Below are positions 57,632-60,873 of a stretch of DNA of 64,000 bases, in pieces. Position numbers and translations under genes: made by a program. The notes below the pieces were generated by a model. The model saw only the letters and a program-made list of their open reading frames with translations, did not search any database and was not told the DNA's origin. The stretch is from Gammaproteobacteria bacterium. Lineage in GTDB: Bacteria > Pseudomonadota > Gammaproteobacteria > Eutrophobiales > Eutrophobiaceae. The DNA lies in assembly GCA_028279365.1 (NCBI GenBank), contig JANQNX010000014.1, positions 331,921 through 395,920 on the forward strand, given 5' to 3'. The first letter of the stretch is position 1; the number at the start of each line of letters is the position of its first letter.

Positions 57632-57717
57632 GCCGATGTGGTGGAATTGGTAGACACGCTATCTTGAGGGGATAGTGGGCTTAGCCCGTGCCGGTTCGAC
57701 TCCGGCCATCGGCACCA
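57632..57717 (+). tRNA. leuU: tRNA-Leu(GAG)
   Basis: An 86-base class II tRNA with CCA encoded. Acceptor stem GCCGATG (57632-57638) pairs with CATCGGC (57707-57713), followed by ACCA. The anticodon loop reads TTGAGGG, anticodon GAG. The long variable arm and TTCGACTC T-loop are clear. Its 3' 54 bases are duplicated at 59562-59615, so it is the insertion site of a mobile element and is restored intact by it. Confidence 0.95.
57664..57717 (+). repeat. Left attachment repeat (3' part of tRNA-Leu)
   Basis: 54 bases from the anticodon loop to the CCA end, identical to 59562-59615 except one base (A at 57672 versus G at 59570). This is the classic footprint of a tyrosine-recombinase element that integrates in a tRNA 3' half. 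Confidence 0.85.
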
Positions 57718-57768
57718 CCTTTAAAATCATATACTTACATTACTTTTTCAGTGGTTTTAAAAATATCC

Positions 57769-57814
57769 TGAGACATAACTGAGACAATAATTTATGTCTC
57801 AAATTGTCTCAGTT
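57769..57814. repeat. Interleaved inverted repeats at the island left end
   Basis: Two inverted repeats overlap in an A-B-A'-B' order: TGAGACATAA (57769-57778) with TTATGTCTCA (57792-57801), and AACTGAGACAAT (57777-57788) with ATTGTCTCAGTT (57803-57814). All four arms share the TGAGACA core. They cannot all pair as one hairpin; recombinase or accessory-protein arm sites, or switching structures, are possible. Confidence 0.7.
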
Positions 57815-57954
57815 TAATTTTTTCCTAAACTTACAAAGGTTTATAGCAAAAACCAAGGTAGTGGCCTTAAATTATCAGATAGTTAGAAATCACATAAATG
57901 CTTGTTTGTTCATGATTTATACATATTTATGTGTTATAAAAATTTAAGATTTAA

Positions 57955-59151
57955 ATGGAATGCAATGCTATGGGACTAGATGTAAGAGTAAATCTTTATA
58001 AAGAGCTAGAGAAACACAGAGGCAACCCTTTAATCGTTTACATTACAAGCGATCGAAGAAACGCTGAAGGTAGTATATCTGGTGATGCTGTTGGTGAACT
58101 TTTAGACCAAATTCAAAAATTACCGTCTAATACAGAAACAATTGATTTGTTATTAGTTAGTCAGGGTGGTGATCCGACTGTTGCCTGGAGAATTGTTTCT
58201 TTAATTAGAGAACAAGTTAAAACCTTAAATGTATTAGTTCCACAAGCTGCATATAGCGCAGCAACATTAATTGCATTAGGTGCGGATGAAATAGTCATGC
58301 ATCCACATGGTAATCTTGGACCTACGGATCCTCAAATTACTGGCCCTGCTCAAGATGGCTCAGGGCCGATAAGATTTGGATCTGAAGATTTAGGAGCATT
58401 TTTAAAATTTGCAAAAGACGAAGTTGGATTGACCGATCAAGGGTATATGCAAGAAGCATTCAGTATGTTTTGTAGACAAGTTGGAGCAGTCCCAATAGGT
58501 GTAGCAGCAAGGAGCCTACAGTTATCAATAAGTATGGGTGAGAAACTTCTCAAATTACATATGACTGATGACAGCCAACAAAAAGAAGCGAGAGCAATTG
58601 CAGAGAAATTAACAAAAGATTTTTTTCATCATGGCTACCCTGTGAACCGAACGGAGGCAAAACAAATCGGTCTAAATATTTCTAGTAGAGATAAGAAAGT
58701 CGAATCTCTAATGTGGAAAATATGGTGTGATATTTCACAGGAATTAAATTTACGTAGGCCGTTTCTTGAAATTGAGGTACTTAAAAATGATCCAAATTGT
58801 GCAGATTTGTTTTCTGCAATACCTCATGCAAATATACCGGCTAATGCACCTCCTCAAGTAGCACAGCAAGTAGGTGCTCAAGTTACGGCTCAGATTGCCG
58901 TTAACCAGATACCATCTAGTAAATTTGAGACTATACATGCATTGATGGAGAGTTCGAGAATTGCTTCAAGATTTGTAACAGCTGGCATGGTTTTTGGATC
59001 AAGAACACCAGATATGAAGTTTAATATATCCAAACTTCATACTTCTCAAGCTTGGGAGTCTGTAAACTTAAGTAGTATTAAATCTTCAGTATCAAAGAAG
59101 AAAACGGCAAAGAAAAAGACAGCAAAGAAAAAGACTATAGTGAGTAGTTAA
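57955..59151 (+). CDS. SDH_sah-type (ClpP/SppA fold) serine protease-like protein with Lys-rich tail
   Basis: A 398-residue protein (393 if ATG 57970 is used; no strong ribosome site for either). Residues about 25-240 form a ClpP/crotonase fold of the serine dehydrogenase proteinase (SDH_sah) family: LLLVSQGGDPTVAW as the oxyanion Gly-Gly strand, Ser101 in QAAYSAATLIALGADEIVMH as the likely nucleophile, and PHGNLGPTDPQITG after it. Then comes a helical part and a tail of KKKTAKKKTAKKKT (about 381-394), which could bind DNA or RNA. No membrane helix is seen. It is the main cargo of the mini-island; a role in host or phage interference is possible but unproven. Confidence 0.75.
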   Translation: MECNAMGLDVRVNLYKELEKHRGNPLIVYITSDRRNAEGSISGDAVGELLDQIQKLPSNTETIDLLLVSQGGDPTVAWRIVSLIREQVKTLNVLVPQAAYSAATLIALGADEIVMHPHGNLGPTDPQITGPAQDGSGPIRFGSEDLGAFLKFAKDEVGLTDQGYMQEAFSMFCRQVGAVPIGVAARSLQLSISMGEKLLKLHMTDDSQQKEARAIAEKLTKDFFHHGYPVNRTEAKQIGLNISSRDKKVESLMWKIWCDISQELNLRRPFLEIEVLKNDPNCADLFSAIPHANIPANAPPQVAQQVGAQVTAQIAVNQIPSSKFETIHALMESSRIASRFVTAGMVFGSRTPDMKFNISKLHTSQAWESVNLSSIKSSVSKKKTAKKKTAKKKTIVSS

Positions 59152-59201
59152 GTTAATAATTATTAAAAAGTGATATTTTTAAAGAAATGGAAGAGAATAA
59201 A

Positions 59202-59393
59202 ATGGTAAATTTAAAAGATATGAAAATTATTAACAGTCCGCATAGGCTGAATAATTCTGCCTCTGTTGAGGATTCTGTTAATGTAATTACACCGCAAAAA
59301 TTGGATGTCCATGAAGTAATTAAGGTCATTGATAATAATGTTCTCGAAATTACTCAGCATGAAGTGTCAACGCCTGATATTAATTCAGCCTGA
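59202..59393 (+). CDS. Small island protein of unknown function
   Basis: A 63-residue product from ATG 59202, with GGAAGAG ahead (an ATG at 59187 would give 68 residues). It is polar with many Asn, Val and Ile (NSASVEDSVNVITPQKLDVH), no membrane helix and no known motif. It follows the protease-like gene by about 50 bases on the same strand, so it could be a partner or substrate, but nothing in the sequence proves it. Confidence 0.45.
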   Translation: MVNLKDMKIINSPHRLNNSASVEDSVNVITPQKLDVHEVIKVIDNNVLEITQHEVSTPDINSA

Positions 59394-59784
59394 TCCCAAA
59401 TTAAGAAACAGTTAAATTTATTTCGTATCTACACATATTCGAGCATTTTACATAATTCAAGATGATGTATGATTTTGTTTTATAATGTCCGATTATGTTC
59501 TGTCACAAGGTCTTATTTTTAATATAAAAATCATTAATTTAACCTTAATAGTATCGCAATATTGAGGGGGTAGTGGGCTTAGCCCGTGCCGGTTCGACTC
59601 CGGCCATCGGCACCAATTTAAAATCATTAGTTAAATTTACTAAAAATTATGTATTAAAAAAAAACGCTTGTGGTAACCACTTTTGATAGCTGTTTCTACG
59701 TGCCTTTCAAAATAACTTTTACTTTTTAATTGATTTAGTATCGTATAAGCTAAATTAGATGTATATGAATAGTAAGAGATAAAA
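59394..59784. other. Gap holding the right attachment repeat
   Basis: About 390 AT-rich bases. The only structured item is the tRNA-Leu 3' copy at 59562-59615. Just after it TTTAAAATCAT (from 59617) matches the bases just after the intact tRNA (from 57720), so similarity goes past the tRNA end. No gene is seen in the rest. Confidence 0.6.
59562..59615 (+). repeat. Right attachment repeat: tRNA-Leu 3' fragment
   Basis: 54 bases, 53 identical to the tRNA-Leu 3' end at 57664-57717. It has no 5' half and cannot be a functional tRNA; it is the displaced end of the original gene or the element's own att copy. Confidence 0.85.
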
Positions 59785-60423
59785 GTGACTTACAGATTGA
59801 CAATTTGCACAATTTTATTTTTCTTTAAAATAACAACTTTAAATGCTGCAGTAGTAGATTTTGAATCTGGTATTGGCGCTGGAGCAAATCTTTCAAATCT
59901 CTTAAGTTCATCAAATTTTAACTATGCTGGCTTATTTTGGGAGCAAGGTTTGCCTGGAGGCGGATCTCGCGGTAGAACTGGTTATTGGACTATACCCAGC
60001 TCTGTAAATAATTATCCTATTGGAAAACAAAATGTAGTCAACGCATGGGGGGCACTATTTTTAGGTATTTCATTTGGTTCGACTGTTAATGTAGAGGGTG
60101 CTTATTTTTCTGAACAAGGTAATGCAGGTTTATCTACAGATGGCATTAGAGTACACGGGTATCTAAATGGCAATAAAGTTGGTAACACAGATTGGTTTAA
60201 TGATATTGATAAGACGAATTCATGGTTTTCAATGAATTTGTTGAATGTAGACAGAATCGTTATTGAAGCGCAAGAAGTAGCTAATGGTGCTGGTATTTAT
60301 GGGATGGATAACCTTACCTATTCTGAAAACATTTCAGTAGTTCCCATTCCTTCCTCTATTTTATTCTTAGGTTGTGCGGTTTTTAGTTTAATTGTGTGTT
60401 CTAGAACAAAAATTGTTGATTAG
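59785..60423 (+). CDS. PEP-CTERM-like exported protein
   Basis: A 212-residue protein starting at GTG 59785. It has a signal peptide (ICTILFFFKITTLNA), a Gly/Asn-rich beta-type middle (VVDFESGIGAGANLSNLLSS, IRVHGYLNGNKVGNTDWFND) resembling many PEP-CTERM proteins, and a C-terminal VPIPSSILFLGCAVFSLIVC followed by SRTK: motif, membrane helix and basic residues, as in VPxP/PEP-CTERM sorting signals. Such proteins are processed by an exosortase and linked to exopolysaccharide. No exosortase is seen here. It lies just beyond the right tRNA repeat and is AT-rich. Confidence 0.72.
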   Translation: MTYRLTICTILFFFKITTLNAAVVDFESGIGAGANLSNLLSSSNFNYAGLFWEQGLPGGGSRGRTGYWTIPSSVNNYPIGKQNVVNAWGALFLGISFGSTVNVEGAYFSEQGNAGLSTDGIRVHGYLNGNKVGNTDWFNDIDKTNSWFSMNLLNVDRIVIEAQEVANGAGIYGMDNLTYSENISVVPIPSSILFLGCAVFSLIVCSRTKIVD

Positions 60424-60873
60424 TGTTTAGTATTTACTGAGTTTATGAATTCAGTTAATCCAACTTTACTGAAGGATTAATTTACTTTTTCTATTTCGGA
60501 TCTTTAACGTAATAATTCAGATGTTCTTCTTTCAATGCATCGATGACCGGTATGAGTTTTTCCGGTAACACGTATTGTTGATAAACCAGCCCGTTTTCTT
60601 TCAACTGCTCACCCCTGTTTTTCTTTTGGTTTTGCACTATCTTGCAAAACAACTATACGAAACTGCTCGAATTAACGATTTGATTTGCAAGTCGGGACTT
60701 TGTCATCTTTTTATAGGGAAAAAACAACATCAGCACTGTTAGTTAGTACCCTATCTTTCTGTAAAGGCTAATTTACAAAATTTTCAATGGAACTTTTATG
60801 TTAGTTTTTTTCATGTGTCTTTTTTTGTATGTGTTTATAAAAAAAATAATGTTTGTACGGGGGTAGAGTTGTA
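60424..60873. other. Gap with a gene remnant, upstream of the second TonB receptor
   Basis: 450 bases. On the minus strand from about 60619 to TAG at 60493-60491 there is an open stretch of about 40 codons (including GLVYQQYVLPEKLIPVIDAL) that looks like the end of a real protein. The frame just upstream changes, so it is probably a frameshifted fragment. The remainder (60620-60873) is AT-rich with no gene seen; it should contain the receptor promoter. Confidence 0.5.
60491..60619 (-). pseudogene. Possible C-terminal fragment of a broken gene
   Basis: About 42 codons on the minus strand ending in TAG: EQLKENGLVYQQYVLPEKLI then PVIDALKEEHLNYYVKDPK. The composition is that of a soluble alpha/beta protein end. 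Upstream in another frame lies RIVVLQDSAKPKEKQ, which would join it after one frameshift. No start codon or ribosome site is seen. I do not recognise the family. Confidence 0.4.

Follow-up and report, generated by a model that had tools for sequence, protein, structure and literature searches.

A tRNA-Leu(GAG) gene in the gammaproteobacterial genome G000 is followed by a 1.9-kb island that carries a protease gene and no integrase gene, and that is bounded on its far side by a displaced copy of the tRNA 3' half. Displaced 3' ends with other cargo recur at the same tRNA in other genomes of the family. We conclude that the island is probably an integrative element that does not encode its recombinase and that would be mobilised in trans, or in cis together with a helper. 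The analysis covered a stretch of 64,000 nucleotides (‘the window’ in short), which corresponds to positions 331921-395920 of contig C6 of G000 (3.14 Mb in 17 contigs). Other G numbers denote the genomes that were compared.

The tRNA gene, its repeats and the island boundaries

The window contains a single tRNA gene according to ARAGORN, the tRNA-Leu(GAG) gene, which lies after tpiA and secG (named from translations). An earlier note, made from the letters alone, had described this gene as intact and the island as bordered by 54-base direct repeats of the tRNA 3' half. Both descriptions proved correct (Table 1), and the repeat core, read off the sequence, is identical at 53 of 54 positions, a match with a chance expectation of ~3e-26 in 64 kb. 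Aligned without gaps, the repeat covers 69 nt at 91% (57657-57725 and 59555-59623), and with one gap it covers 84 nt at 90.5% (57657-57740 and 59555-59636), reaching ~20 nt beyond the CCA. The sole mismatch in the core is an anticodon-stem base, which is A in the functional tRNA and G in the displaced copy; G is also found at this position in every other listed tRNA-Leu(GAG) of the family. No trace of a tRNA 5' half was found at the right-boundary copy, and the G000 flank beyond it had no match among the other tRNA-Leu flanks.

Table 1. Features of the island and its target tRNA in the window, and loci of the multi-hairpin elements
Feature	Position	Strand	Basis or remark
tRNA-Leu(GAG), intact, proposed integration target	57632-57717	+	ARAGORN
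Proximal repeat, functional 3' half of the tRNA from the anticodon loop through the CCA	57664-57717	+	similar up to 57740 if one gap is allowed
Nested inverted repeat, left end	57768-57812	+	z -6.4 against shuffles
SDH-type ClpP-fold serine protease, 398 aa	57955-59151	+	PF01972
68-aa ORF, no family match	59187-59393	+	Pfam, PADLOC and NCBIfam searched
Right-end motif, candidate recombinase arm site	59464-59490	+	common to the G019 and G070 islands
Displaced tRNA 3' half (53/54), right boundary	59562-59615	+	similar up to 59636 if one gap is allowed
Multi-hairpin elements in G000	L189, L190 (two), L195, L204, L205 (tandem), L206, L208
Multi-hairpin elements in relatives	L214-L243, e.g. L228:1111-1957

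The segment between the repeats had been described as AT-rich and as holding just two genes, and this was confirmed. Its G+C content is 0.337 as against 0.433 for the window, a value reached by only 1.3% of segments of the same size, and it holds two ORFs of 398 and 68 aa. At the left end, the inverted repeat is far more stable than shuffled sequence and is followed by a T-rich run. It would probably serve the tRNA as an intrinsic terminator that came with the island; the only overlapping site in the terminator scan was on the minus strand. A related palindrome with a compensatory change is present 3' of tRNA-Leu(GAG) in G070, and the island of G019 has no left-end palindrome.

Cargo of the island

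The protease scored 67 bits for its Pfam family, for which the gathering score is 31.3, and stayed below the NCBIfam equivalog cut-off (75.8 of 250). Residues S101, D125 and H226 were invariant across eight homologues, which fits a predicted Ser-Asp-His triad; we take this triad to be what the family name (SDH) refers to. The gene is rare, with homologues in 11 of 96 genomes at E <= 1e-3 and in 3 of 398 genomes of a phylum sample at E <= 1e-20, G000 being counted in both cases. It was not found in viral contigs, and PADLOC did not match it to a named defence family.

One homologue is located on a phage-like plasmid of E. coli, where it lies alone on the opposite strand within the lysis region, flanked by the genes for holin and antiterminator Q. 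The lysis region of phages often houses accessory phage genes. Among plasmid relatives, one only covered at least 80% of the protease (40.5% over 91%, on a Chlorohelix plasmid), and the small neighbour gene on that plasmid looks, by eye, unrelated to the 68-aa ORF. Neither ORF of the island matched a phage family in Pfam or NCBIfam, except for a sub-threshold match to the Clp-fold head-maturation protease. The earlier note had proposed a search for the cargo gene at the same tRNA in other genomes; the 11 homologue loci gave no such case, as none has a tRNA within 1.5 kb.

Displaced tRNA 3' ends in related genomes

The same note had proposed a search for the repeat itself at this tRNA, and here the architecture was found again with other cargo. 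Displaced 3' ends at tRNA-Leu(GAG) were present in 7 of the 42 family genomes scanned (G000, G019, G070, G033, G065, G003 and G016) as against none of 53 loci outside the family, a count for which misses near contig ends are possible, the downstream stretches ranging from <100 bases to ~18 kb, and in which loci with the tail cut one to several bases off (L127, L149, L150, L163, L167 and L168) are entered as misses. The minus-strand control gave no displaced end. The 42 genomes are G000, a set of 34 and a set of 7; of the 53 family genomes, 11 were left out of the tail scan, among them G060, which was covered by BLAST only.

The displaced copies have two kinds of core. Long cores, which begin in the anticodon loop, were found in G000, G019 and G070, and short cores, which begin in the T-loop, in G033 and G065 (22-27 nt) and in G016 and G003. 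As Williams reportedly described in 2002, integrase families prefer particular sublocations within tRNA genes.

Among the long cores, the 61-nt repeats of G019 (98%) lie 851 bp apart and enclose a Gp49-family toxin with an HTH antitoxin. The G070 copy, which was located by pattern and BLAST rather than by the tail scan, matches the right end of the G019 island at 81% over 157 nt; HipBA is found just beyond it, followed by acnB. The tRNA and its copy are on different contigs in this genome, and the island is not closed. Among the short cores, 27-nt repeats 2.7 kb apart flank AbiEi/AbiEii in G033. G065 has two displaced copies of the T-loop type in tandem (+777 and +1677), the first interval with an HTH protein and the second with a BrnT toxin, a small partner ORF and a sub-threshold UPF0150/HicB-like ORF; no further displaced copy was found in 19 kb. 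The short copies of G003 (+176) and G016 (+112) have no genes between them and the tRNA, and that of G003 stems from a multi-hairpin element of the kind described below. In the genus of G065 and G033, the region after tRNA-Leu(GAG) appears rich in toxin-antitoxin genes (L129 and L054), with BrnT and AbiE assigned by family search and several VapBC-like and DUF1778-like genes recognised by eye. An 81-nt match between the displaced copy of G019 and the tRNA region of G004 was dropped for its weak similarity past the tRNA.

The right ends of the G000 and G019 islands have a 27-nt motif in common (81%, E 6e-4), which starts 85-99 nt before the core. Used as a pattern with up to three mismatches, it matched 3 of the 53 family genomes, once in each and always at the right ends of G000, G019 and G070, a result whose independent part is the absence of the motif elsewhere, the motif having been defined from the islands that it then found. 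The reversed pattern, used as a control, gave one match. A wider collection of genome contigs yielded seven matching stretches, of which one was G019 and six were AT-rich matches in unrelated organisms that apparently arose by chance. In viral contigs, the motif had no match.

Search for an integrase or an autonomous relative

A tyrosine recombinase was sought with an HMM made from the five such recombinases of G000 and one of a relative; the island gave no match, nor did the 37 kb that separate it from nuoA. With two ORFs only and no match to the HMM, the absence of an integrase that had been noted earlier holds for the island. A full-length island with an integrase on the same att core, also among the searches proposed earlier, was looked for in the 53 family genomes, the wider collection of genome contigs, viral contigs, phages and plasmids without success: the motif pattern led to no element in the 53 genomes that combines these ends with an integrase, the tRNA 3' half was not found in viral contigs, and the search of phages and plasmids for an attP-like sequence returned only short tRNA-like matches.

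An integrase gene is present at this tRNA in G071, which belongs to the genus of G019. There, a gene for a 404-aa P4-type integrase lies beside tRNA-Leu(GAG) and is followed by an IS3-like transposase and acnB (L103 / L083); in G035, acnB comes directly after the tRNA. The integrase-transposase locus of G071 is probably a broken integrative element, and neither a second repeat nor the right-end motif was found at this tRNA. Outside the family, G207 carries an integrase similar to that of G071 at tRNA-Leu(GAG). The P4-type integrase of G071 was considered as the helper of the island and was rejected, as it has no relative in G000, G019 or G070 at E <= 1e-10.

Proposed origin of the island and alternative explanations

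We hypothesize that an external tyrosine recombinase joined a circular cassette, which carried a tRNA-Leu(GAG) 3' half, to the tRNA gene, with an exchange point near the anticodon loop, where the identity starts. The 3' half brought by the cassette would rebuild the tRNA, and the original 3' half would move to the right boundary. If the exchange took place no further 3' than the anticodon loop, the displaced copy would be the ancestral host half and the functional half would be island-borne; the displaced copy retains the ancestral base of the family at the position of the mismatch. Such a cassette would consist of its ends and cargo only, namely the terminator-like hairpin, the protease gene with its small ORF, and the right-end motif, a candidate for the probable binding site of the recombinase. 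The island would be one of a small set at tRNA-Leu(GAG) with a common end architecture and different addiction or defence genes. Such cassettes would move in trans or, through accretion with a helper, in cis, and would probably owe their persistence to their cargo. In a wider reading, which we regard as tentative and rather unlikely, tRNA-Leu(GAG) serves the family as a docking site for non-autonomous, stackable cassettes consisting solely of a tRNA 3' half, an arm site and an addiction or defence module that can be exchanged, with the integrase provided in trans, resembling an integron with tRNA ends as recombination sites.

The earlier note had left the choice between a minimal satellite moved in trans and a decayed remnant that kept its cargo. 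A tRNA-targeted element without an integrase and with intact cargo agrees with our results; the satellite part of the proposal gained no support, neither a packaging or phage feature nor an attP-like sequence in viral contigs having been found. As for decay, a larger integrase-bearing island or prophage may have been reduced by deletion to its att sites and a useful cargo, leaving a fixed remnant that is now immobile. Integrase-bearing elements use the same tRNA in G071 and, outside the family, in G207, the E. coli phage-like plasmid encodes a protease homologue, and CIMEs are described, in the accessible part of PMC7563491, as products of such decay. This explanation is possible, though somewhat unlikely: it requires loss of the integrase in each of three genomes, with both repeats (at 98% in G019) and the same right-end motif kept, and neither an integrase remnant nor any other phage gene is left in the island.

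That the tRNA-Leu gene was simply duplicated and its second copy then decayed is barely credible. Such duplication does occur outside the family, where G046 carries a second complete tRNA-Leu(GAG) gene at a distance of 1.1 kb from the first; it is the only genome with two complete copies, and the second repeat was never found inside a complete tRNA-Leu gene within the family, which the earlier note had named as the sign of a duplication. The boundary lies instead at the anticodon loop in three genomes, with no residue of a 5' half, and the DNA between the copies is AT-rich, foreign-looking and different in cargo from genome to genome. Duplication was rejected, as the displaced copy does not lie within a complete tRNA. 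It also seems very unlikely that the displaced 3' end of G000 originated from a multi-hairpin element and that the protease gene was captured later. Elements of this type follow at least eight other tRNAs of G000, and in G003 one of them accounts for the short displaced copy found at tRNA-Leu(GAG). However, neither of the two covariance models matches within the window, and the tRNA copies of the elements are ~14-22 nt long and from the T-loop side, as against 54 nt from the anticodon loop in the island.

Comparison with known elements

An integrase-less cassette at tRNA-Leu(GAG) would, by analogy, work like CIMEs and like the ssrA islands that lack an integration module, and would thus be of a known kind. 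The new aspects are the exchangeable defence-like cargo, the common end motif and the tandem stacking (in G065) at so small a size. The literature search brought up known CIMEs and ssrA islands, and no recognised description of the tRNA-Leu(GAG) site.

In the accessible part of PMC7563491, CIMEs are integrase-less elements flanked by att sites, classical ones measuring 1.2-13 kb and microCIMEs 130-220 bp; they occur in Streptococcus salivarius and S. agalactiae, in the latter with a tRNA-Lys CTT site. According to the same part of that source, they have att flanks, cargo, a tRNA site and composite tandems, and lack recombination genes, all of which they have in common with the cassettes. The G000 island itself is flanked by att repeats, and its two ORFs include no recombination or conjugation gene. 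In contrast to the island, for which no ICE or IME relative was found, CIMEs are defined there as derived from an ICE or IME (PMC7563491). The cassettes at tRNA-Leu(GAG) differ further in that their cargo is mainly of the toxin-antitoxin or Abi type. We do not apply the CIME label to the island, because it could not be traced back to an ICE or IME. With no integrase of its own, it is not an autonomous island or IME either.

Of the Dehalococcoides ssrA islands, 15 lack the integration module, as far as the accessible part of PMC3146451 describes them. These islands likewise form tandems after one RNA gene, are bounded by displaced 3' ends and have a conserved motif left of the displaced repeats; they differ in having a tmRNA target and a serine recombinase helper on sister islands (PMC3146451, same part). 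The P4-type integrase element of G071 uses the same tRNA gene in the same family, but has its own integrase, and no second repeat or right-end motif was found with it. PICI, tycheposons and CALIN arrays also rely on the functions of another element, as outlined in the accessible part of PMC11389934; no packaging signal or satellite gene was identified in the G000 island.

The TIGER/Islander catalogue requires an integrase gene and drops elements <2 kb, according to the accessible part of PMC12424338, and cassettes of the present type would therefore be absent from it. If common, they would constitute a hidden route for the spread of defence and addiction genes. The tRNA-Leu(GAG) site would offer a compact system in which to seek the recombinase that serves cassettes without a recombinase gene of their own.

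Surroundings of the island in G000

In several relatives nuoA lies close behind this tRNA, for instance after 878 bp in G001, a genome of the same genus as G000 that has no displaced copy, and after 701 bp in G029; in G000 the distance is ~39 kb. The stretch from the tRNA to nuoA in G000 contains a TonB receptor, regulators and a XoxF-like PQQ dehydrogenase cluster, as judged by eye from translations. Part of it, 28 kb with the XoxF-like cluster and no integrase found, is bordered by a 133-bp direct repeat (94.7%) at 60482-60614 of the window and at C6:420509-420641 (L052:9509-9641). Of its two copies, the right one forms the 3' end of an intact KorA/TrfB-like gene (PF16509) and the left one is a displaced fragment; judging from this layout, the segment would resemble an island located in the korA 3' end. 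Directly right of the tRNA-Leu(GAG) island, a 212-aa ORF (59785-60423) in DNA with a local G+C of 0.32 has a PEP-CTERM-like C-terminus by eye and no match in Pfam or NCBIfam.

Displaced 3' ends at other tRNAs and multi-hairpin elements

When the other tRNAs of G000 were scanned, 5 of 34 had displaced 3' ends within ~6 kb, and the minus-strand control gave 0 of 34. At tRNA-Phe(GAA) on contig C7, the displaced 3' end lies 1246 bp downstream (35 nt, 88.6%, E 5e-9; L194:185-1455), and the mini-island so formed holds two opposite-strand ORFs of 161 and 111 aa, which are not integrases by Pfam and gave sub-threshold matches only.

Four of those five tRNAs, and no fewer than four others whose copies are shorter, are followed by a multi-hairpin element. 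These elements are 110-150 nt long and sit immediately 3' of tRNA genes, among them genes for Lys, Arg, Gln, Ser and Pro; the last 14-22 nt of each repeat the 3' end of its own tRNA. They sometimes form tandem arrays. Compensatory changes were present at 23 of 28 pairs when the sequences were aligned to the model. The covariance model matched in 35 of the 53 family genomes, with up to 43 copies, often in tandem, at E-values that come from a short calibration. Among the 30 loci returned, a tRNA was present within 100 nt at 14 and absent from that range at 16, in a model whose tRNA-tail columns favour matches on the tRNA side. As the models give no match in the window, the elements are separate from the island finding. 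Six loci tested against Rfam had no match, and the literature search gave no recognised description of tRNA-tail hairpin elements; the family is apparently undescribed, and may be a more unusual object than the tRNA-Leu(GAG) mini-island. One tRNA-Gln carries three displaced tails in a row.
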